Below are positions 3,971 to 39,791 of a stretch of 64,000 nt of DNA, in pieces. Each line of letters begins with the position of its first letter. Position 1 is the stretch's first letter. This DNA is from Desulfovibrionaceae bacterium (GTDB lineage: Bacteria; Desulfobacterota; Desulfovibrionia; Desulfovibrionales; Desulfovibrionaceae), in assembly GCA_009773665.1 (NCBI GenBank), contig WSYE01000010.1, positions 1 through 64,000 on the forward strand, written 5' to 3'. Below the pieces are notes generated by a model that was not told the DNA's origin, made no database searches, and saw only the letters and a list, made by a program, of their open reading frames with translations. The translations under genes and the position numbers were made by a program.

Positions 3971-4842
3971 TACAAGGCCTCCTGGATTTCGATGGTGTTC
4001 CACGACTGGCGCAGGTAGGTTTGCCAGGTCATGCGCGAGAGCGCGGCGAAGTTGGCGCGGAAGCTGAACAAATGCCGATATTGATTGTCCTGCGGCATGA
4101 GCGACACGAAGAACTCCCGATCCAGCCCAAGGAGTCGCTTGGCCTCCAGGAACACGGCGTAAGCCTCATCCTGCGGCATGTACTGGATCTGGAGCCCAGC
4201 CACCCGGAAGGGGTCGGACGTGTCGAAGAATTTCACGCCGCCCTTGGACTTGGTGAACGTGGTGTCCGACGCCCACCCGAAGTTGGAGCCATAGAGGAAG
4301 TTGACCGTGAGTTGCGCCACCGGCGCAAGCATTGCCTGCCCCACGTCAATGTGGCCGTCCGTGTTGTCCACATCGTTGATCTCGATGCGCCACCACTTGG
4401 TGAACTTCGGGGCAGGGAGAATCGTGAAGAAGTTGCGCGGGAAGCGGTCCAGGTTGCGCGCCGTGGGCTTTCCGCTCAGCCAGTTTGAGGCCTCGGGCGG
4501 GAGCGAAGCCGTGGGGGCGTAGGCCGGGACCATCTCCAACCAGGCCGTCTCGGCTCCGGGATAGAGCGTGGTCCGCTCGGAGTCGGAGTATCCCGTGATG
4601 CGCACCAGGGCATTGGCGCTGCACGTGTGGCCCATCAGGCCCACAAACTGCACCTGCTCGTCGCGCTCCAGAGTCACGTCAATCACGGTGGACGCCAGGG
4701 ACACGTCCGTGGACCGAGCCACCTCGGCCAGGATGCGCCCGGCGAGGTTCGAAGCTGGCAGTTCAGACAGCCAAGACCCGCCGCCGAACGTGGCGCCCCA
4801 GCCATAGTTGTAGGGGGTGAAAAGCATCTTCGCGTTAAGCAT
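3970..4842 (-). CDS. Minor tail protein (290 aa)
   Basis: The start is placed at 4842 (MLNAKMLF...), overlapping the upstream hub gene by eight bases; the longer frame runs antisense-like through the hub gene. The product is a soluble, aromatic-rich beta protein with WWRIEINDVDN and FNYGSNFGW-like segments, typical of distal-tail or baseplate proteins. It lies directly downstream of the hub-like gene. By synteny with other long-tailed phages this is where distal tail proteins are encoded. The assignment is positional. Confidence 0.7.
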   Translation of the reverse strand: MLNAKMLFTPYNYGWGATFGGGSWLSELPASNLAGRILAEVARSTDVSLASTVIDVTLERDEQVQFVGLMGHTCSANALVRITGYSDSERTTLYPGAETAWLEMVPAYAPTASLPPEASNWLSGKPTARNLDRFPRNFFTILPAPKFTKWWRIEINDVDNTDGHIDVGQAMLAPVAQLTVNFLYGSNFGWASDTTFTKSKGGVKFFDTSDPFRVAGLQIQYMPQDEAYAVFLEAKRLLGLDREFFVSLMPQDNQYRHLFSFRANFAALSRMTWQTYLRQSWNTIEIQEAL

Positions 4843-6376
4843 AAACGGTGACCTCCGTGCGGCTCTTGGCGGGCAGTTCTTCCAGGCCGGACACCACGCA
4901 GGGCGTTCCGGATAGCCCCTGACGGCGGGAGGTGAGCGCGACAACGTCGCCAAGTTCCAGCGCGGCCGCGTAGGCCGGATCGAGCGTGAAGCGGAAGGAC
5001 CGACGCGGGCTGGCCCGGAACGCGGCCCGGCGCTGCGCCTCAGCCAGGGCGTCGGCGCGCACGGTGAACAGGCTCTCGAACTCCACCTGTTCGGCCAGCG
5101 GGTGCCGGGCGGTCACGGTGGCGTCGGGCTGTCCGTCCGTGGTGCTGGTGGCCGTGCGGTACTCTTCAGCCAGCCAGGCACGACGGTCTGCGCTGACCAC
5201 GGCGGCCACGTCGTTGTCCTTCATGGGCGTCCAGTTCTTGCCGAATTTGCAGGTCACCAGACCCCAGGGAGCGCCGGTGATGTCGTCGGTGACGCGCTCC
5301 AGATCCTGGTGGTAGGTGTCGGTGATGGTGAGCACGGGCGTGCCGGACGGGGCCACGATGCGCCCGAAGTGCATAACGCCCAGGCGATCCGGGCAGTACC
5401 AAGCCCAGGGCCCCGCGCAGAGCGCGTCCAGGATAGCGCGGACCTTGGCCCCGGAGTCGTCGTAGCTGCCGATGACGGCTGGCGTGTCCGTGGCAAGATC
5501 GTTCAGGGAGGCGGCGGACCAATCCGCACCGGCGGACCATCCTCGGATCGTCAGCACTCGCCCGATGATCCCGGCCAGGGTGTCCACGTAGCCACCCTGC
5601 GAGTCGCCCAGCACGTCGGCGGTGATCTTGGTGCCTGCGGTGGTGTTCGCCCTGAATAGGCCCAGGGCGAGGCAGGTGCGGTAGTGCCCGCTGGCGATAG
5701 ATGCAGCGGCCAGGGCTGCGGCGTCCACGTTGTCACCATCGAGGGTGAGCGCGGCCCCGTTGGAGTAGACCGCAGGAATGGCCTGCACGGCGCGGTAGCT
5801 CACCTGATAGATGACGCTGGAGGAGTTCACGAAGACCGGCGAGACGTTGGGACAGACGCCCAGGGCAAGGGGCTTGAACTTGCCCTTGAGGTCGTCCTTG
5901 CCTTCCACGCCCGTGGCTCCGGAATCGGTTCCGGCGTATTTGGGGATGGGCAGCGGCTGGTCGAGTTCCTTCTGGCGGTCGCGGATGTTCAGCGTCATGG
6001 ACTTCCAGGAGAACTCCACGGACTCGATCACGCCTCGGAACACCGGCACGAACTGCGCGAGGCTTTGTCCAGACTCCCCGGCCAGCACCTGTACGGCCTG
6101 GCCGTCCAGGCCCCAATCCTGATAGTCGTAGAGATCCAGGTGGCCATCATCGTTGGTGAGCTCGATCTCGCCAGCGCCCACGCGCGAGGCCCCGGCGTCG
6201 TTTCCGCCGAAGAGTTCCCGCGTGAAATGATAGGCAACGTTCACGCCCGGCTTCCACACGGCGTTGGCCGGGGTGTCCGTGGGAGAGGAAACAAATCCAG
6301 CACCCGAGCAGAAGCGCAGCGTGGTCGGTGTGGTGGAGCCCGGCGGCAGGGCGGTGATGTTGATGAGGTGGATCAT
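4835..6376 (-). CDS. Tail hub-like / baseplate protein (513 aa)
   Basis: This is the first gene after the tape measure, overlapping it by four bases (ATGA at 6373-6376), as is usual for hub or tail-tip proteins. The C-terminal half contains YHQDLERVTDDITGAPWG and a RSFRFTLDPAYAAALELGD segment. These resemble phage proteins in which a tail-hub fold binds the end of the tail tube. No peptidase or lysozyme motif is seen. The hub role is inferred from order and length. Confidence 0.7.
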   Translation of the reverse strand: MIHLINITALPPGSTTPTTLRFCSGAGFVSSPTDTPANAVWKPGVNVAYHFTRELFGGNDAGASRVGAGEIELTNDDGHLDLYDYQDWGLDGQAVQVLAGESGQSLAQFVPVFRGVIESVEFSWKSMTLNIRDRQKELDQPLPIPKYAGTDSGATGVEGKDDLKGKFKPLALGVCPNVSPVFVNSSSVIYQVSYRAVQAIPAVYSNGAALTLDGDNVDAAALAAASIASGHYRTCLALGLFRANTTAGTKITADVLGDSQGGYVDTLAGIIGRVLTIRGWSAGADWSAASLNDLATDTPAVIGSYDDSGAKVRAILDALCAGPWAWYCPDRLGVMHFGRIVAPSGTPVLTITDTYHQDLERVTDDITGAPWGLVTCKFGKNWTPMKDNDVAAVVSADRRAWLAEEYRTATSTTDGQPDATVTARHPLAEQVEFESLFTVRADALAEAQRRAAFRASPRRSFRFTLDPAYAAALELGDVVALTSRRQGLSGTPCVVSGLEELPAKSRTEVTVYA

Positions 6377-9300: not shown

Positions 9301-11376
9301 CATCTGCATGGACGGATCGAACGAAAGCTGCCCAAGTTCGGACATGATCGCACCGGAACGCTTGATGAGGTCGGTCCACTTCTCGAATTCTGTCTGCGCC
9401 TTCTTGGCCCCATACTCCCAGCGCGCCCAATATTCTTCCAGGGGCGTCTTGGCGTTCTTTAGGTCCTTGTCGAGGTCGGCCAGCAGGGTGCGGAACTTCC
9501 CGCTCCAGGCGTCACCGTTCCATGATTCGGAAGCGCCAAGCGCCTTGTTCATGGCCTCGGAGATTTCGAAGGAGGACTTGCGGGCGTCCTCTCCAGCCTT
9601 CTTGTGCTTCTTGTTGATGGACTCCAGTTCCGTGCCGAGCGAGTGATAGGCGTCACGCTCGACCGCGACGGCTTCGGCCATCTTGGCGGAATCCCCCTGG
9701 GCCATGCCATACATGCGCTGGGACAGGTCGTATCTGGCCTTGAATTCCTTTTGAGCCTGCTCACGGCGTGTCTGGTCAGACAGGCCTGATTCGGATCCAC
9801 GCACCTTCGCGGCCTGTGCGGACAAATCTCCCCAGGTTTCCGGGATTATGGGCTTGGTGTTGGTGTTGGCGTTGGTGTTCAGCGGCTTTGCAAGAGAGTC
9901 GTTCAGCATCAGGCGCTCGGCATCAAGCTCCCCGCGACCGGCCTTGATCGCCGCTATCTCCTTGTCAACCTGGAACACCCGCAGGGCTTTCCCGCTTTCA
10001 CTCAGGAGGCTGGACCCCTCAATCCTCTTTTTGGTGTTTTCAAGGTCACGCAGCTTGGCCTCTGGGGAGGTACCCCAAGCATCCCCGATGGAATTAAATA
10101 AGTTCCTGGTCTCGCCCACGGCCCCGGAAAGAACCCCCAGGGCAACAAGGGCCTTTGGGCCTCCAACAACGGCAGCCACAAGGCCAAACTCCTGGACAAC
10201 CGAAGGGAGGCTGTTCCACCCGCTGGCGACAGTGCCCAAAAACTCCCCGGCCTTTTGCCCGGCACTCACGAGACTGGAGAACGCCTCTTCGCCGGTCTTT
10301 CCGATGGCTGCAATCTGAGCCTTCGCCTCTCCGGTCTTGAGGTATTCCGTGAACTCCTTGATCTTTTGGGTCGCCATCACGACAGAGTCCGACAATCCTT
10401 CCTGGAGCGCTTCGCCGCCAACGGTCTTCAGGTCTTCCATGTACCGGGTGAAGCTGCTGATCTGCTTCCCAGCCGTGCCCATGGCGGCCTCGTAGGTCCC
10501 GGCGATGCGCTTTCCGGACTCCATGACCGCCCCCACGCGCGCGACCATCTTTTCCTGTTCGGTCAGGGCTTCGGCGCTCTTGTTTGTCTGCGCGGCGAGC
10601 TGCTTGTAGGAATCCTCGAAACTGACGTTCATCCCGATTGTGCGCAGCATCTCCGGCTGCGCGGACTGGATGGCCGTGACCATGTGCATGAACGCCTGAC
10701 TCGAATTCATCTGGCCGATGACCGCCGCGTCCTGAGCGATGCGCCCCAGCTCCGTGGCCCTGGCCAGGTCGATTCCGGCCTGCGTCAGCTTGACGGTGGC
10801 GTCTCGGCTTTCCACCATGGCGATGCCTTGCTTCTGAAGGCTTGTGGCGGTGGCATCCATGGTTGCCTTAGCGATCCCGGCGTTGCGCCCGACGACTTCC
10901 ATGACGACACCAAGCGTTTCAAAACGGGCAGCGGCCAGGGCGGAATCCCTGACAAAGTCGGCCAGTTTGAGCGCGCCAAAGGCAGCGCCTGCGGTTAACA
11001 TGGCGTTTCTAAACAGGTCGGCGGAATTGCTCATCGCACCTAAAGAGGATTGGGCCTGCTTCGTGGTGAGACCCATGGCCGCCCCGGCCTTCCTGATCGC
11101 CTCTTCCGACGCTCCAGCGGCCTTGGCGGCCCTCTCGAAAGCCTTGGATGCTGCGGACTCGGCCAGCATCTTCTTGGCCTGATCTTCCCAGCGCTTCATT
11201 TCCGCGCCGGACATCCCCATGGCCTTGCCTACGGATTCGATGTCCGACTGAACGCGCTTGAACTGCTTCGAGGTCTTTTCGGCAAACGCGACCGTCACAC
11301 CCTCCGAGTTCCGGAGAGATGTATCGAGAGAGCGGGTGTCAGCGCTCATCAAGAATTCGAGATTGCCTACTTTCAT
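6373..11376 (-). CDS. Tail tape measure protein (1667 aa)
   Basis: It is by far the longest gene of the tail cluster. The product has long helical and coiled stretches, an N-terminal region typical of tape measures (SADTRSLDTSLRNSE, then Ala/Lys helices), and glycine/alanine-rich hydrophobic segments around residues 1015-1065 that could insert into membrane. At about 0.15 nm per residue the tail would be near 250 nm, a long siphovirus tail. A GAGG SD precedes the ATG. Unusually, the chaperone genes that normally abut the tape measure are separated from it by a 2.2-kb cassette on the other strand, so the gene needs its own promoter in 11377-11458 or readthrough. Confidence 0.95.
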   Translation of the reverse strand: MKVGNLEFLMSADTRSLDTSLRNSEGVTVAFAEKTSKQFKRVQSDIESVGKAMGMSGAEMKRWEDQAKKMLAESAASKAFERAAKAAGASEEAIRKAGAAMGLTTKQAQSSLGAMSNSADLFRNAMLTAGAAFGALKLADFVRDSALAAARFETLGVVMEVVGRNAGIAKATMDATATSLQKQGIAMVESRDATVKLTQAGIDLARATELGRIAQDAAVIGQMNSSQAFMHMVTAIQSAQPEMLRTIGMNVSFEDSYKQLAAQTNKSAEALTEQEKMVARVGAVMESGKRIAGTYEAAMGTAGKQISSFTRYMEDLKTVGGEALQEGLSDSVVMATQKIKEFTEYLKTGEAKAQIAAIGKTGEEAFSSLVSAGQKAGEFLGTVASGWNSLPSVVQEFGLVAAVVGGPKALVALGVLSGAVGETRNLFNSIGDAWGTSPEAKLRDLENTKKRIEGSSLLSESGKALRVFQVDKEIAAIKAGRGELDAERLMLNDSLAKPLNTNANTNTKPIIPETWGDLSAQAAKVRGSESGLSDQTRREQAQKEFKARYDLSQRMYGMAQGDSAKMAEAVAVERDAYHSLGTELESINKKHKKAGEDARKSSFEISEAMNKALGASESWNGDAWSGKFRTLLADLDKDLKNAKTPLEEYWARWEYGAKKAQTEFEKWTDLIKRSGAIMSELGQLSFDPSMQMTGDKKQLAAEWLDAVKLAGGNQEEISRINQLYQLKEVDLREKTLGDVAQLDEAYWARRKNGLTKLDAYLQQQGVSEQTRAAVMSQKMSKIDEDRLKARLGYEDSFGGYLSDRLALQYGLYKDAAAQQLEVWEKTADATIELFDGVMESFTWAMGQGFGDLLTGKLKTIEDYTQQLLAQLKQVFANWLTEMARIAANKYIVVPIMGQIMGTSGSLGAGAGGFTGEVTSGSNGFSLEGAMKYGGYAKDAYGMFSGPGAAGAASLASEAAQGANFVGPSVQLANAGVPGSSSLTTLGALGAGAAAGGIGYMAGGFIRPDNPMASYVGAGAGLIGGTVAGMASLGALAATGVGALVAIPAALAVGLTQGNTEKSEWTVPNASKSAIMIAGGENTNASYGVIKTTSSGAFGSSSTSHKSIFGLASPEMAAQQDAAWAAATKGLDGFTKAVGVSESELTNAKSSFNFPAIPIPDGMDAEVYRNVANAEAEHTLAQLGMLDAIKAVTKDGEAYIDTLTRLDSTFSTMENLAISTGFGLEQVAAGMDRIVAADYASRLMEAAGGADAFAAALSRLNTYGYSAQEQMERSLTGTATATGRAIAEIGNAEVTIENFWPKFRQAMESGMDPDRMAAWVTASARMEQWEQVKAAWQQKDIEALQTQTSTLQAQISVIQQVSSAWKGFGDQMVRLKQSLLMDANLSTLSPEQKMYAAKTRLDSLTSEANNKSTDHLADIDQATKDYLSSSLDFFGATADYYAIFDSTSATIDQLTSLAGSQVSAADQQVASLNFQIEQNNAQITALNTINSGLGDVVAAVNNVSQAIGGAIQSANAAQQSVSIPQWAASAVAADSAAASSPYAGSASSDGQGYADLMRNMGWSVPAFAEGGTTKGGWFVAGDDPLSSRSGELMYSASPVKVFNNKQSRSMLAGGGQGGDTSALEAKMDAVGSVLVDILNVLQDGGGTGAAVEKLTRVVKVNGFKAAGA

Positions 11377-12525: not shown

Positions 12526-12731
12526 CTAAGAAACACCTCGTAGGACGGACGCCGCGACCGAAATTCGTGGATTTTTTGCGCCTTTTGTCGTATGCACCCG
12601 ATTGCCGGGTGTCCCATGGACATACAACACCTTCGGGGAAATCCATGGGGCCGCTCCTACGCGGTTTCTTAGCGCCCGGCACTTTTCCTCATGTGAGGGG
12701 TGCTGGATAAGAAAACCGTAGGAGGTTTTTC
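12526..12731 (+). promoter_or_regulatory. Candidate structured RNA switch in the leader of the Rha gene
   Basis: Three segments are mutually complementary. R1 is 12526-12545, the inverted copy is 12655-12672, and R2 is 12707-12723, which includes the Shine-Dalgarno. R1 pairs with the inverted copy in 9 bp (12526-12534 with 12664-12672) plus 7 bp (12539-12545 with 12655-12661). R2 can pair with the same segment in about 15 bp and would bury the SD (TAGGAGG, 12719-12725, six bases before the ATG). Nested inside are CGTGGATTT/AAATCCATG (12566-12574 with 12639-12647), GTCGTATG/CATACAAC with one mismatch (12587-12594 with 12621-12628), and a perfect CACCCG/CGGGTG hairpin (12595-12611). CCCATGGA (12613-12620) also complements 12642-12649, giving a second alternative pairing. 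The architecture is that of a translational switch or attenuator; ligand or partner is unknown. Confidence 0.6.
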
Positions 12732-34591: not shown

Positions 34592-34822
34592 TTATCCTTC
34601 GGCCTGCTGGCCGGGGGTAGGGTTGGAAGGCGGGTTGAGCACAGCCGCAACAAGCCTCAGGGCCATGCCACCACTATGCTGGCCAGACCTTATTTTCCGG
34701 TAGTGTCGGATGCTCATACCGAGAGCTTTTGCCGCCTTAGAGTGGCTTCCATATTTGGTCAGGAGCAACTCGAAGTCGTCTGAGTGCTGTTCCGCTGTGT
34801 TCATGTCGGCAATATGGGGCAT
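34592..34822 (-). CDS. Cro-like HTH regulator (76 aa)
   Basis: The sequence FELLLTKYGSHSKAAKALGM followed by SIRHYRKIRSGQHSGGMALR is a helix-turn-helix of the Cro/YdaS type. It is the first leftward gene, divergent from 34901-35224. A leftward promoter (-35 34852-34857, -10 34829-34834) would start transcription near 34822, so the message may be leaderless; ATG 34804 is the alternative start. It is likely the lytic regulator that competes with the divergent repressor. Confidence 0.7.
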   Translation of the reverse strand: MPHIADMNTAEQHSDDFELLLTKYGSHSKAAKALGMSIRHYRKIRSGQHSGGMALRLVAAVLNPPSNPTPGQQAEG

Positions 34823-34872
34823 TCCGCCCTATAAAGTCAATGGGTGTTTTGGGGCAAATTGGTCAATTGACC
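34808..34872. promoter_or_regulatory. Divergent operator/promoter region of the regulators
   Basis: Three elements are visible. First, GGCAATATGGGGCA (34808-34821), whose exact reverse complement recurs at 36207-36220. Second, TGTTTTGGGGCA (34845-34856), sharing the GGGGCA core. Third, a 12-bp palindrome GGTCAATTGACC (34861-34872). A leftward promoter, TTGCCC and TTATAG with 17 bases between (minus strand 34857-34829), overlaps the second site. The arrangement is that of lambda-like operators between cI- and cro-type genes. Confidence 0.6.
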
Positions 34873-36102: not shown

Positions 36103-36188
36103 CTTCTCATCCTCCTTTGCGGCTCATGGCCGCGATGATTTTTTTTATCCGATCTCCTTCAATAGGTCAATACGCCCCATTTTTCTCG

Positions 36189-36220
36189 TTGACTAATGGG
36201 TCGAGTTGCCCCATATTGCC
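36189..36220 (+). promoter_or_regulatory. Rightward early promoter with embedded operator
   Basis: TTGACT (36189-36194) and CATATT (36212-36217) are 17 bases apart. The -10 lies inside TGCCCCATATTGCC (36207-36220), the exact reverse complement of the site at 34808-34821 beside the regulator genes. A further GCCCCAT copy lies at 36174-36180. The likely start near 36224 is five bases before the first stem of the structured RNA. Control by the phage repressor is therefore probable. Confidence 0.6.
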
Positions 36221-36223
36221 ATC

Positions 36224-36827
36224 AACGACGCGCCCCTCCCGGCGAGGCAAGTACCGACAGACCCAGGCCGAAAGGCTCCAGACCCCAATAACGCGGGGCA
36301 AGGCGGGATAGAGGGAACACCACAAACCTGGGGGCGCGGAGACGAGAAGAGACGACCTTTGACAGTTCGAGGTTTCGGAGAGTGGCGAACAGCGCGGGCT
36401 AGCCCCCCATGCCAGGAGAACCGCGAAAGCGATCCGGGACGGCAGGAAAAGGCTTGGCCGGTTCGGGCGAACGGCCCGCCACTCTCCCGAGCCTCGAACG
36501 ACACCTTGAGTTCTGCGGGGATGGCGGCGGCGTGGAAAGCATAGACACGCAAAACTGGAAACACGCCTGAGATGCGAACAGGGGAAGAAGCAGTCCTTTT
36601 GGCTTCCAGGCTCGTGCCAAAGGCTTCGTCAGGGGGATCCGACAAATACCCCGCGCCGGGGTGATGTCCGGCCCGCCATCCACCGCAGGACTCAAGAGCG
36701 AATCGCGGCCCCTGGTGGCTCTTGAGTGACCGCCAACGGCAACAAGGAGCGCGCCATGAAGTAGCGCCATCGAGGGGGAACCGGGGCGATACCTTCCCCC
36801 TCCCACCAGGGACCGCGAACAGATTTC
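36224..36827 (+). ncRNA. Candidate large structured non-coding RNA upstream of the tRNAs
   Basis: No credible protein gene is present in these 600 bases, yet stems are dense. An 8-bp long-range stem closes the 5' domain (36229-36236 with 36331-36338), containing a GGCC-GAAA-GGCT hairpin (36266-36277) and a CCCC/GGGG hairpin (36283-36298). The central domain (36365-36499) is closed by about 22 bp with two single-base bulges and holds a CGC-GAAA-GCG tetraloop (36422-36431) and an 8-bp hairpin (36456-36476). The 3' domain has hairpins at 36595-36623, 36639-36671 (nested CCCCG/CGGGG), 36690-36727 (10 bp, perfect) and 36772-36802 (9 bp, perfect, no U-tract). The RNA runs from a dedicated promoter into the tRNA genes. 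GOLLD and ROOL RNAs have the same genomic setting, but I cannot match their consensus by eye. A leader with antitermination function is the main alternative. Confidence 0.65.
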
Positions 36828-36914
36828 GGAAGATGCCGTCGAATGGCCGGCAGCCGGTTTTGAAAGCCGGAGGTGCCCGCAAGGGTAGGGGTTCGATTCC
36901 TCCATCTTCCGCCA
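36828..36914 (+). tRNA. tRNA-Ser(TGA)
   Basis: The acceptor is GGAAGAT/ATCTTCC with encoded GCCA. The anticodon stem CCGGT/GCCGG flanks loop TTTGAAA, so the anticodon is TGA. There is a long variable arm (GGTGCCCGCAAGGGT) and a T-arm with GGTTCGATTCC. At 87 nt it is a class II tRNA. It should read UCA and UCG and, depending on wobble modification, other UCN codons. It is one base from the next tRNA. Confidence 0.93.
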
Positions 36915-36915
36915 C

Positions 36916-37003
36916 GGAGGGCTGGCAGAGCGGTAATGCGCCGCCTTGGAAAGGCGAGGCCAGGGTAACACCTGCACAGGTTCGAATCCTGTGCCCTCCG
37001 CCA
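36916..37003 (+). tRNA. tRNA-Ser(GGA)
   Basis: The acceptor is GGAGGGC/GCCCTCC with encoded GCCA. Anticodon loop TTGGAAA gives GGA, reading UCC and UCU. The anticodon stem has four good pairs and a C-A mismatch at its base. A long variable arm and GGTTCGAATCC T-loop are present (88 nt). Confidence 0.92.
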
Positions 37004-37005
37004 AC

Positions 37006-37091
37006 GGAAGGTTGCCCCGAAAGGTAAGGGAGCGGGTTGCTAACCCGTCGCTGTAAAAGGCTTGCAGGTTCGAGTCCTGCACCTTCCGCCA
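37006..37091 (+). tRNA. tRNA-Ser(GCT)
   Basis: The acceptor is GGAAGGT/ACCTTCC with encoded GCCA. Anticodon loop TTGCTAA gives GCT, reading AGC and AGU. The stem GCGGG/CCCGT includes one G-U pair. A class II variable arm is present, and the T-loop is GGTTCGAGTCC (86 nt). With its two neighbours it completes a set covering all six serine codons. Confidence 0.92.
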
Positions 37092-37196
37092 GATTTCGGC
37101 AGATGCCCAGAACATCAACTCCAACCCCTACCCGGCAGGGTTCGTATGTCGGGGGCTTGATCGAAAGCAGGTCAGTAGCGGCGGATGACAGCGTGT

Positions 37197-37231
37197 GGGC
37201 GGGGTGGACCTTGAAGCGGAACGCCCCGCCC
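37197..37231 (+). other. GC-rich hairpin after the tRNA cluster
   Basis: GGGCGGGG (37197-37204) pairs perfectly with CCCCGCCC (37224-37231) around a 19-base loop. No T-tract follows, so it is not a typical terminator. It may mark the 3' end of tRNA processing or shield the downstream SD (37246-37250). Confidence 0.4.
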
Positions 37232-37255
37232 GCAACAAAACGAACGGAGGACGCC

Positions 37256-37378
37256 ATGCGAAAGTTCATGAACGCCTTTCACTGGGAAAACGTGCTGACA
37301 ATCTTCTATGTGCTTTGCACCGTCGCTTTGCTGATCCTTCTCGCCTGCGACAAGTACATGATGGGGCCGTTCAGGTGA
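37256..37378 (+). CDS. Small single-span membrane protein (40 aa)
   Basis: GGAGG lies five bases before the ATG. The product is MRKFMNAFHWENV followed by a transmembrane helix (LTIFYVLCTVALLILLAC) and a short tail. It is the first protein gene of the rightward early operon after the tRNAs. It overlaps the next frame by GTGA. Function unknown; toxin-like or anti-host roles are common for such early micro-proteins but unproven here. Confidence 0.6.
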   Translation: MRKFMNAFHWENVLTIFYVLCTVALLILLACDKYMMGPFR

Positions 37379-37524
37379 TTTTCCGCATGTTCTTTACGCG
37401 TCGTCTTCCTGGTGGCCGGGTGGAAATGCACTCCCGCGAGTGCTCCAAGTCCGACTTGGTAGAAACCTTCTATGCCGCGCTTGCTCAGGGCTACGTGTCC
37501 TACAGCGTCCGGGGGAGCAGGTAG
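37375..37524 (+). CDS. Small hypothetical early protein (49 aa)
   Basis: A GTG start at 37375 overlaps the preceding stop (GTGA); ATG 37387 is the alternative. The product is a small soluble protein (HSRECSKSDLVETFYAALAQ then GYVSYSVRGSR) with no recognised domain. Confidence 0.5.
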   Translation: MIFRMFFTRRLPGGRVEMHSRECSKSDLVETFYAALAQGYVSYSVRGSR

Positions 37525-37525
37525 A

Positions 37526-37717
37526 GTGCCTGAATGGACCAAAGACACATGGCGCGGGAACTACGTCGTCTACATGGGCGACGACAGAAACAGCGCCACA
37601 TTCTACGGCCCCGAGGCCGAGCAGAAGCGCGACGAATACTTCGCGGCCTGCGCGCCGCAGCACAACGGACAGCAGCAGAACAACACCGGGGAAGCCAATG
37701 AATATCGTCAGTCTTGA
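37526..37717 (+). CDS. Small hypothetical early protein (63 aa)
   Basis: GTG 37526 immediately follows the previous stop. The sequence begins VPEWTKDTWRGNYVVYMGDD and ends in a Gln/Asn-rich tail that overlaps the next gene by 20 bases. No family is recognised. Confidence 0.5.
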   Translation: MPEWTKDTWRGNYVVYMGDDRNSATFYGPEAEQKRDEYFAACAPQHNGQQQNNTGEANEYRQS

Positions 37718-38963
37718 AACCAGCAACGTGAAGCGCCTGAAGGCGGTCCAGATCACGCCGGACGGGCAGGGTCTGGTCATCGTCGGAGGCAACAACGGCC
37801 AGGGGAAATCCTCGGTGCTGGACTCCATTCTCTACGCACTTGGCGGCGCGTCCACGCACTGCCAGCAGCCCGTCCGCTTCGGAGAGGACAAGGCCCGCAT
37901 CGTCTGCACGCTCGACAACGGATTGGTCATTCAGCGCACGTTCACGGCGGCAGGAGGCACAGCCCTGGCCGTCACCAACGGAGACGGGGAAAAGTTCTCT
38001 TCTCCGCAGAAGATGCTGGACGCCATGGTCGGCAGGCTGAGCTTCGACCCGCTGGAGTTCAGCCGCATGGACGCGAAGGCGCAGCTTGCCACGCTCAAGG
38101 CGCTGGTGGGCCTGGACTTCTCCGCCCTCGATGCCCAGCGCCAGACCCTCTACGACGAGCGCACACTGATCAACCGCGAAGCCAAGGCGGCCTGGGCCGG
38201 TGTCGAGGGCACGCCGTTTTACGAGGGCGTTCCCGAAGTGGAAACGTCGGTATCTGAATTGATGGCCGAGCTCAAGCGCCGTCAGGAAGTGAACGCGGGA
38301 ATCGACGGGCGCGTCACCGCTTACAACAACCTGCTGGCTCAGATACAGCGCGGCGTCGATCATATCGCCGGGCTTGAAGCGCAGATCGCGCAACTCCAGA
38401 AGCAGCTGGACGACTCGCGCACTTTCAAGGCCAAGCTGGAGCAGCAGGCTGAGAACGAGCACGCCGAGCTAGTTGCCATGACCAAGGAAGATGAAGCCGC
38501 CATCCTGGCGCAGTTGGACGACATCCAGGCCCTTAACGGGAAGGTGGCCGCCAACGCGCAGCGCCGGGAACTGTCCACGAAGGCGCAGGCCCTGCAAACC
38601 AAGGCCGCCGAACTCACTGCCCAGATCGAAACCATCGACACCCAGAAGAATGCGCAGCTGGCCGCCGCCAAGTTCCCCGTGCCCGGCATGAGCTTCAACG
38701 AGGACGGCGTGCTGTTGGCTGGAATCCCCTTTGCGCAGGCCTCGGACGCCGAGAAGATCCGCGTCAGCGTTTCCATGGGGCTGGCCATGAATCCTCAGTT
38801 GAAAGTCGTGCTCATCCGCGACGGGTCGCTGCTCGACCAGAACAGCCTGGCCGTGATCGCGTCCATGGCCGCCGAGAGCGGGGCGCAGGTCTGGATCGAG
38901 CGCGTTGGCGAGGGCGACGAGTGCTCCGTGATCATCGAAGACGGCCAGATCAAGGAGGCCTAG
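37698..38963 (+). CDS. RecF/SMC-like AAA ATPase (421 aa)
   Basis: Start 37698 gives MNIVSLETSNVKRLKAVQIT and Walker A GGNNGQGKSSVLDSI near residue 33. A central coiled-coil region spans about residues 195-310 (QIQRGVDHIAGLEAQIAQLQ and after). The C-terminus has a signature-like SDAEKIRVSVSMGLA and Walker B-like VVLIRDGSLLD. It is shorter than RecN/SbcC but has the same plan. It opens a recombination cluster with Sak4-like and SSB-like proteins. Confidence 0.8.
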   Translation: MNIVSLETSNVKRLKAVQITPDGQGLVIVGGNNGQGKSSVLDSILYALGGASTHCQQPVRFGEDKARIVCTLDNGLVIQRTFTAAGGTALAVTNGDGEKFSSPQKMLDAMVGRLSFDPLEFSRMDAKAQLATLKALVGLDFSALDAQRQTLYDERTLINREAKAAWAGVEGTPFYEGVPEVETSVSELMAELKRRQEVNAGIDGRVTAYNNLLAQIQRGVDHIAGLEAQIAQLQKQLDDSRTFKAKLEQQAENEHAELVAMTKEDEAAILAQLDDIQALNGKVAANAQRRELSTKAQALQTKAAELTAQIETIDTQKNAQLAAAKFPVPGMSFNEDGVLLAGIPFAQASDAEKIRVSVSMGLAMNPQLKVVLIRDGSLLDQNSLAVIASMAAESGAQVWIERVGEGDECSVIIEDGQIKEA

Positions 38964-38966
38964 ACC

Positions 38967-39791
38967 ATGTTCGACCTCTCCACCATCACCAGCGCATCCG
39001 CCGTTTGGAAGCCGCAGCGCACGCTGATCTACGGCGTCCAGGGTCTGGGCAAGACCTCGCTGGGTTGCACCTTTGAAGCGCCGATTCTGCTGCCCACCGA
39101 AGACGGCTCCATGGCCATCGACGTGCAGTCCTTCCCCATGCTCAAGAGCTACGACGAACTGTGCGCCGCGTTCTCCGCGCTGCACGAGCAGCCGCACGAC
39201 TTCAGGACCGTCGTGATTGACTCCCTGGACTGGATGGAGCCGCTTGTCTGGGCGCACACGTGCGGCATCCTGGGCATCACTTCCATCGAGCAGGCCGGGT
39301 ACGGAAAGGGATACGTCGAGGCGGATGCTCAATGGCGCAACATCATGGGCTGGCTCGACGCCCTGCGGCTGGCGCGCGGCATGAACATCGTCCTGATAGC
39401 GCACGCCGAGGTCAAGCGCCACGAGCCGCCCGACGGCGACCCTTACGACCGCTACCAGATCAAGCTGCACAAGCGCGCCTGGGCGCTCTGGCAGGAATGG
39501 GCCGACATGGTGCTGTTCGCCAACTACCGCCGCGAGATGAAGAAGACCAGGGACGGGGGCAAGGGGCAGGACAAGTTCCGGGCCACGGGAAAAGGTGAGC
39601 GCGTGCTCTTCACCGACGAGCGCCCGGCGTACATGGCGAAAAACCGCTGGTCCCTGCCCCACGAAATCTACATCGGCCAGGACAAATCCTGGGCTGCTTT
39701 TCACCAGGCGCTGCACACGGCCACCAGCGGACGCTACGCTTTGCCCCCGGCTCTGTCCCAGACTCCGACCTCAACCCCAGACGCCGCATAG
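38967..39791 (+). CDS. Sak4-like RecA-fold ATPase (274 aa)
   Basis: The P-loop GVQGLGKTSLGCTFE lies near residue 24 and Walker B-like FRTVVIDSLDWMEPLVW near 80. It continues with MNIVLIAHAEVKRHEPPDGD, typical of the phage AAA_24/Sak4 family of single-strand annealing or recombinase-like ATPases. It lies three bases after the RecF-like gene and directly before an SSB-like gene, the usual Sak4-SSB partnership. Confidence 0.8.
   Translation: MFDLSTITSASAVWKPQRTLIYGVQGLGKTSLGCTFEAPILLPTEDGSMAIDVQSFPMLKSYDELCAAFSALHEQPHDFRTVVIDSLDWMEPLVWAHTCGILGITSIEQAGYGKGYVEADAQWRNIMGWLDALRLARGMNIVLIAHAEVKRHEPPDGDPYDRYQIKLHKRAWALWQEWADMVLFANYRREMKKTRDGGKGQDKFRATGKGERVLFTDERPAYMAKNRWSLPHEIYIGQDKSWAAFHQALHTATSGRYALPPALSQTPTSTPDAA

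Follow-up and report, generated by a model that had tools for sequence, protein, structure and literature searches.

The window, that is, the whole stretch of 64,000 nucleotides of DNA that was analysed, carries genes for an integrase, a terminase, a portal protein, a methylase, a helicase and AAA ATPases, and from this phage gene content the region is judged to be a prophage. The host is probably a sulfate-reducing bacterium, and its genus is probably Fundidesulfovibrio. A match to the Rfam family sRNA-Xcc1 lies in the left part of the window (12603-12689, + strand; 54.8 bits, just above the gathering threshold of 53). The features of the locus under study are as follows.

34811-34840, - strand: twin promoter-like site TTGACT-18-CATATT, with hexamers identical to those of the RNA promoter; likely to be the early promoter for leftward transcription
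36117-36135, + strand: 8-pair hairpin with a T-run behind it, resembling an intrinsic terminator, 5' of the RNA promoter (scan)
36174-36214, no strand assigned: operator-like repeats GCCCCAT (36174, 36208) and ATGGGTC (36196) that overlap the promoter; a role as operators is inferred
36189-36217, + strand: predicted promoter of the RNA, sigma-70-like TTGACT-17-CATATT (sequence scan)
36222-36344, + strand: D1, the 5' domain, with stem P1 carrying a 3-nt bulge and with inner hairpins; genus-conserved core, model R1 (comparative)
36229-36236 with 36331-36338, + strand: P1 of D1, CGCGCCCC/GGGGCGCG (fold)
36355-36367, + strand: boxA-like word ACCTTTGACAGTT between D1 and D2, with 10 of 13 bases as in the rrn leader GTCTTTGACAATT of the same-genus genome G003
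36365-36499, + strand: D2, long closed domain with stems GTTCGAGG... and GGAGAGTGGCG... (fold; layout similar by eye in locus L005)
36505-36696, + strand: D3, closed by 14+9 bp and holding the widespread module (fold)
36521-36679, + strand: widespread phage RNA module, models R2 and R3 (comparative, covariance models)
36529-36550, + strand: module hairpin A, GGCGTGGAAAGCATAGACACGC (pattern and comparison)
36655-36672, + strand: module hairpin B, GCCGG-GGTGATGT-CCGGC (comparison)
36703-36818, + strand: D4, the 3' domain, with a closing stem of 16 nt, 94% complementary (fold)
36828-36914, + strand: tRNA-Ser(tga) (ARAGORN); RNase P would cut at its 5' end (inference)
36916-37003, + strand: tRNA-Ser(gga) (ARAGORN)
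37006-37091, + strand: tRNA-Ser(gct) (ARAGORN)
37256-37378, + strand: gene 3' of the tRNAs for a small protein, MRKFMNAFHWE..., hydrophobic by eye, with relatives behind two other leaders
38967-39791, + strand: AAA_24 ATPase of the presumed early operon (family match)

Transcription of the RNA is predicted to start about five bases 5' of P1. The promoter remains a prediction only, because sites of the TTGACT/CATATT type number 2 in 6 kb against 1.4 expected by chance. An operator-like word, GGCAATATGGGGCA, is common to this promoter and the leftward site by eye, and identical operator-like words overlap both promoter-like sites (36189-36217 and 34840-34811). The operators, like the promoter, are predicted from sequence. 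Downstream, the scan of the + strand found no terminator-like site from 36217 to 39677.

The stretch 36222-36827 is likely to be a large structured noncoding RNA whose 3' limit lies at the tRNA-Ser trio, a conclusion drawn with no coding-potential test and no expression data. Open reading frames are present in the region, for instance one of 112 aa at 36206-36544 on the + strand. The RNA of about 600 bases is divided into four domains, D1 to D4. As a whole, 36196-36827 folds with a z of -6.6, and none of 20 shuffles was equally stable; the domain values are -3.6 for D2, -4.7 for D3 and -5.6 for D4. The background, 56 windows of 300 nt taken at 28 positions on two strands with 20 shuffles each and including windows that overlap the RNA, has a mean z of -0.3 (sd 1.3), and its lowest value, -3.86 at +35501, lies outside the RNA. 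D1 alone reaches a z of only -0.97. Its stability is thus not unusual and the support for it is comparative, while the excess stability of the whole RNA is owed to D2-D4.

The closing stems of D2 pair 36365-36372 with 36492-36499 and 36377-36387 with 36477-36487. Those of D3 pair 36505-36518 with 36683-36696 (93%) and 36519-36527 with 36673-36681 (100%), and that of D4 pairs 36703-36718 with 36803-36818. The original prediction, made without database searches, fares well on these points. Its promoter pair five bases before the first stem holds as sequence (TTGACT-17-CATATT, a predicted promoter); its 8-bp closing stem of the 5' domain is P1; the stem pairs of about 22 bp that it placed around the central domain are located in D2; both of its GAAA tetraloops are present; and the RNA does lead into three tRNAs, tRNA-Ser tga, gga and gct at 36828-37091. 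For its four strong hairpins in the 3' part, two further long closing stems were found, D3 and D4. The observation as a whole is confirmed; its remark that no credible protein gene occupies 600 bases stands beside the open reading frames mentioned above.

All three tRNAs are called by ARAGORN, as the sole tRNAs near 36-37 kb, and two of the three by Rfam at gathering; the RNA itself is called as a tRNA by neither. With the anticodons as interpreted, the tga, gga and gct trio would cover all six serine codons. Relatives of the small protein encoded behind the tRNAs also come after the leader in the prophage-like loci L022 and L029, and a small hydrophobic ORF (by eye) comes next after the leader in L005.

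No family of Rfam 15 matches the RNA, or the homologous RNAs searched in relatives, at gathering. Up to E=10 two families match within 36222-36827: mir-1224, in the opposite orientation, and sX4, weakly, from 36819 into the tRNAs. Among the relatives, SNORD23 matches one D1 locus weakly, and mir-483, again weakly, the dissimilar L022 leader. All four are far below gathering and are taken as chance. The GOLLD and ROOL models match neither the window nor the tested relatives, at gathering or up to E=10. Published surveys of phage RNAs include the c4 antisense RNA, which is an Rfam family (PMC2864571), and 28 candidates located close to integrase, sortase or phage domains (PMC8040213). Two conserved strings, in DNA and RNA spelling, retrieved no paper, and no recognisable description of the RNA was met in the literature searched, which held no preprints and few subscription journals and is not proof that the RNA is undescribed. 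The class is likely to be unnamed and undescribed, a judgement that rests on Rfam 15 and the literature searched, the candidate models of PMC8040213 not having been compared. The original prediction had offered a divergent GOLLD or ROOL member or else a new class; the second half is favoured and the first half fails for want of any Rfam match.

The part of the RNA with the widest distribution is the module in D3. Its plan is a closing stem, a hairpin GCGTG-GAAAG(n)TAGA-CACGC (hairpin A), a variable part and a hairpin NNNNG-AGTAACGC-CNNNN (hairpin B). The closing stem, usually of 7 bp or more, is followed by a two-base linker and a hairpin of 5 bp whose loop has at least nine bases; the 3' part is a 5-bp hairpin with an 8-base loop and no linker to the closing strand. 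The window module fulfils closing stem, hairpin A and linkerless hairpin B. A DNA search of 99 relatives gave a short D3 match in G008, a genome of another genus, where locus L005 shows D2 and D3 laid out as in the window and the outer stem of D3 differs from that of the window by compensated changes at 3 of 14 pairs.

The hairpin A pattern, GGCGTGGAAAGN{0,8}TAGACACGC, matched 27 IMG/VR contigs in a viral scan run without a scrambled-pattern control. The whole module is present in 29 of 33 loci with hairpin A (the window, L005, the 27 IMG/VR contigs and four isolated phages), and shuffled downstream sequence yields it in 1 of 6600 trials. Two further contig loci, L082 and L083, also score strongly with R2 and R3, which brings the module to 25 of the 27 IMG/VR contigs. 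L076 holds only part of the module (37 bits), and L057, at 19 bits, is probably a chance match to the pattern. Tandem modules were observed in L074 (8352-8465 and 8529-8660, the second with an altered hairpin A). Similarly, L068 has a module at 5648-5754 and, by eye only, a second copy downstream that lacks hairpin A. In L067 an Rfam match to abiF RNA (4243-4279, - strand; 37.3 bits, gathering 37) lies near the module.

The stems of the module covary. In alignment A10, with 28 sequences and 476 cells, 99.6% of the cells (474/476) are paired, and double changes occur in 11 of 17 pairs, in 99 cells; none of 500 shuffles reaches this and slid controls attain at most 57%. The rows were chosen for having stems (4 of the 33 loci were dropped for having none, together with L072, a near-copy of L066), and the covariation is therefore not independent of this selection; the controls are the downstream-shuffle test and a leave-out model, R3. 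Hairpin A is invariant in A10 because it was the search pattern. Separate scans for variants of its stem found GCGTT/AACGC at 4 places and GTGTG/CACAC at 3, and R3 scores all seven. R3 was built from 15 modules with the window and L005 left out and was run on 19 chosen sources. It scores the window at 57.6 bits (E 9.5e-11) and detects 14 further places outside the model, and nothing up to E=1 in L044, L053, L055 and L056. The original prediction was to fall if homologous stems showed changes without compensation. They are mostly compensated, 474 of 476 cells being paired in the module and 114 of 120 in D1, described below.

Among 348 genomes of the order, R2 gives six matches at E<=0.01: the window, G008, G228, G284, G283 (weak, 32 bits) and G033, the last being a CRISPR spacer with a hairpin A variant (L093, G033:C38, near 291484-291578). 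In the phylum, with 395 genomes searched, the window is the sole match at E<=0.001. The rest of the RNA is less widely seen. No relatives of D4 were found in the DNA search of 99 relatives or in a nucleotide search of phage records, the exact D2 string has 0 matches in the viral contig scan, and 36189-37100 meets 19 phage records, all through the tRNA region only.

The settings of the module are diverse. The isolated phages that carry it are the Pseudomonas phages PotUPM1, Persinger and Orimi01 and the Ochrobactrum phage POI1126. In PotUPM1 it follows the cI region, in Orimi01 it lies beyond a divergent repressor-like gene, and in G228 it follows a gene for a CI-like (S24-type) repressor and an operator-like promoter (the promoter by eye). 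In POI1126 it is flanked by tRNA-Met and tRNA-Gln, and in Persinger it comes after the integrase gene and directly before a terminator-like hairpin (by eye); these two positions are not those of a leader and thus fit with a free RNA. A stem domain lies 5' of the module in G008 and G228 (by eye). In the IMG/VR contigs the ORFs beside the module vary, with no family search of these ORFs made. ARAGORN calls a tRNA within 500 nt in 6 of 30 module loci, against 2.9 expected at random places in the same loci, and no call overlaps the module in loci other than the window. Proximity to tRNAs, noted at first for the window RNA and for GOLLD and ROOL, is modest and does not define the class: 24 of the 30 module loci lack a tRNA within this distance, as do the D1 relatives, where ARAGORN found none within 500 nt.

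D1 has a distribution of its own. The DNA search of 99 relatives gave similarity to D1 at a second place in its own genome and in three others of the genus. Diverged copies were reached in G002 and G006 via a search with the small protein. Model R1, searched over 348 genomes of the order, matches 7 of 7 same-genus genomes. Its loci are the window, a prophage-like locus in G005 and six chromosomal copies. The G005 locus was not part of the model and scores 53 bits, and its D1-type RNA starts at a predicted promoter with a palindrome unlike the operator-like words of the window. Three R1 matches outside the genus (E 0.02-0.04 per genome, 348 genomes) are weak and taken as chance. A D1 pattern search of GTDB species genomes yielded six stretches, one of which, from Fundidesulfovibrio agrisoli, scores 118.9 bits with R1. 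The remaining five are two from Mycobacteriaceae (25.5 and 24.2 bits), two others (13.8 and 11.3) and one from Photobacterium that is absent up to E=10; they are taken as chance because they were chosen for carrying the pattern. Viral contig scans returned 0 D1 patterns.

The chromosomal copies lie between an S24 repressor gene and genes for a small Cys-rich protein and an NrdR/Ogr-like zinc ribbon. The S24 repressors of these loci share 83-100% identity, the comparison covering only part of the length for two of the six, and a MucR gene is present at 5 of the 6, not being seen in the short G002 locus. The arrangement resembles a domesticated phage early region. The cassette of S24 repressor, D1-type RNA, Cys-rich protein, zinc ribbon and MucR was noted at L015:8361-11392 (own genome, other contig) and in G001, G002, G003, G004 and G006. 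At the chromosomal locus L053 no terminator-like site was found on the RNA strand from the promoter to the next gene, and at L013 there is a single weak one (10198-10215), not above chance. At these two scanned loci, then, transcription appears to continue from the RNA into a protein gene, and this favours a leader over a free RNA.

The structure of D1 is supported by a hand-corrected alignment of 8 loci, in which 114 of 120 cells are paired and double changes occur at 7 of 15 pairs; 0 of 2000 shuffles reach the observed pairing and 3 of 2000 the count of double-changed pairs. The correction consisted of a gap placed beside P1 and one end base trimmed in two rows. Only P1 and the second inner hairpin are counted; the first inner hairpin, with its variable loop length, is left out. 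Because of the manual gap, the trimming and the choice of hairpins, this test leans towards structure. The uncorrected MAFFT alignment, A5, gives mild support: the observed values are reached by 20 of 500 shuffles for paired cells, 41 for double-changed pairs, 94 for double-changed cells, 380 for further pair types and 36 for the covariation score.

D1 and the module are separable. R2 finds nothing at the chromosomal D1 loci, nor at that of G005, and R1 finds no D1 (E<=1) in 40 loci selected for the module, so that D1 and D3 as one RNA are seen in the window only. A second prophage of the same genome (L056, G000:C21:93000-112900) has a leader of 235 nt (L022/L056) that opens with CAACGACGCGCCC, matching the window RNA by eye over 13 bases, and is otherwise unlike it. 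Its operator-like palindrome, GTTGCCATGTGGCAAC, is different from that of the window, and behind the leader come proteins related to the small hydrophobic and the Cys-rich one. This leader has no score with R1, R2 or R3. Single-sequence folds of the leaders L018 (z -0.67), L022 (-0.31) and L044 (-0.94) show no clear gain in stability over shuffles.

Between D1 and D2 stands the boxA-like word. Its core, CTTTGACA at 36357-36364, has two occurrences on the + strand of the 64 kb and one on the - strand, and is also found in the rrn leader of G003, GGTCTTTGACAATT, where CTTTGA begins 96 bases before the 16S start motif. That motif could be located in only 1 of 5 genomes, and the comparison rests on one leader and a short word. 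TCTTTGA lies upstream of the module in L005, G228 and PotUPM1, and exact words of this type fall within 300 nt upstream of the module in 3 of 33 loci against 2.0 expected. A general enrichment of boxA over the modules is thus rejected; boxA does not characterise the class and marks at most members of the leader type. It stands out only in a subset picked after inspection, and the word of the window is one base off the TCTTTGA-type pattern. In rrn operons boxA is necessary and sufficient to recruit antitermination factors, and a role in RNA folding has been proposed (PMC10250234); a boxA ahead of a long untranslated RNA and tRNAs is therefore plausible, as an inference. As in an rRNA operon leader with its boxA-NusB-S10 system, the core precedes a structured untranslated RNA and tRNAs, whereas here there is no rRNA, the promoter is a phage promoter, and only some members have the word.

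The likeliest reading, which we would put forward without leaning on it, since it might as readily fail as hold, is a new class of modular, multi-domain phage RNA that is released and acts in trans. The structure, the conservation, the distribution of the module, the tRNAs and the absence from Rfam beneath it are shown; the steps that follow are inferred. When the repressor leaves the early promoter the RNA would be made, from a start about five bases before P1 of D1. The boxA-like word between D1 and D2 would probably recruit NusB-S10, as for rRNA operons, so that polymerase would cross the roughly 870 untranslated bases of the RNA and three tRNAs without Rho termination while the RNA folds properly. 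An RNase P cut at tRNA-Ser(tga) would then free the 3' end of the RNA nine bases after D4, and the freed RNA would act in trans mainly via the D3 module, whose two conserved hairpin loops may face a partner common to different bacteria. A bolder version, no more than a possibility, is that the module has a tRNA-like plan and is a mimic or decoy, in trans, of a universal host machine, be it the ribosome, a tRNA enzyme or a tRNA-cutting defence protein; the RNA of the window would then be a multi-module form delivered with fresh serine tRNAs.

Alternatively, the RNA could act in cis as a processive antitermination leader of the early operon, in the manner of HK022 put or lambda nut. This is the main rival, and we rate it well below an even chance; the original prediction had named a put-like antiterminator as its alternative, and this cannot be dismissed. 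The boxA, hairpin and module would load host Nus factors or touch polymerase, and the long operon would be read through. In favour of it, the window RNA begins at a predicted operator-controlled promoter, as does the D1-type RNA in G005; the module is near repressor genes in PotUPM1, Orimi01 and G228; boxA-like words are present in the window, L005, G228 and PotUPM1; and the + strand is free of terminator-like sites by scan between 36217 and 39677. However, read-through would make little sense before the terminator-like hairpin of Persinger or between the tRNAs of POI1126, and most modules have no boxA. The put RNA of HK022 is a cis RNA of about 70 nt and two stem-loops in early transcripts of this temperate phage, with putL just 3' of the promoter (PMC9378689); contact with the beta' zinc-binding domain and suppression of termination are further marks of put. 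It shares with the window RNA a position near the start of an early phage transcript, here predicted and not observed, yet the latter has four domains over about 600 nt, tRNAs downstream, and a module that also occurs outside leaders. Given the predicted repressor-controlled promoter and the boxA-like word, the RNA may act by both routes.

It is unlikely that unrelated modules were joined by recombination and that each acts alone, with no joint function of the RNA. Such an origin is suggested by D1 (R1) and the D3 module (R2) being together only in the window among the loci tested. Against it, D1 and the module share a strand and a single predicted promoter, with no terminator-like site between them, and a stem domain also precedes the module in G008 and G228 (by eye). 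Very little favours a riboswitch-like cis leader that controls translation of the first early gene, that of the small hydrophobic protein. A related gene does follow the leader in the window, L022 and L029, and a similar ORF does so in L005, but in the window three tRNAs and a spacer separate the RNA from the gene, other phages differ in their neighbours, and L022 scores with neither RNA model. A divergent member of GOLLD or ROOL can practically be ruled out. RNAs of these two families are large and ornate, occur in phages and prophages, frequently close to tRNA islands, and have no known function (PMC12286853); a homo-oligomeric RNA cage is a further mark of them. The window RNA is likewise large, ornate, within a prophage and adjoined by a tRNA-Ser trio (36828-37091), but no model matches it up to E=10, it measures about 600 nt, and its modules are separable, the one in D3 having a simple architecture of its own and being found alone in many phages.

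Large structured phage RNAs are known in small number, and their functions are poorly understood. The module described here is compact and strongly covarying and can be searched for in any genome, and its presence in isolated phages makes it testable at the bench now. A chromosomal D1 relative stands next to an S24 repressor in 6 of the 7 genomes of this genus, which hints that the hosts have kept part of the RNA. Different phages, for their part, seem to share a structured RNA module whose job is unknown.
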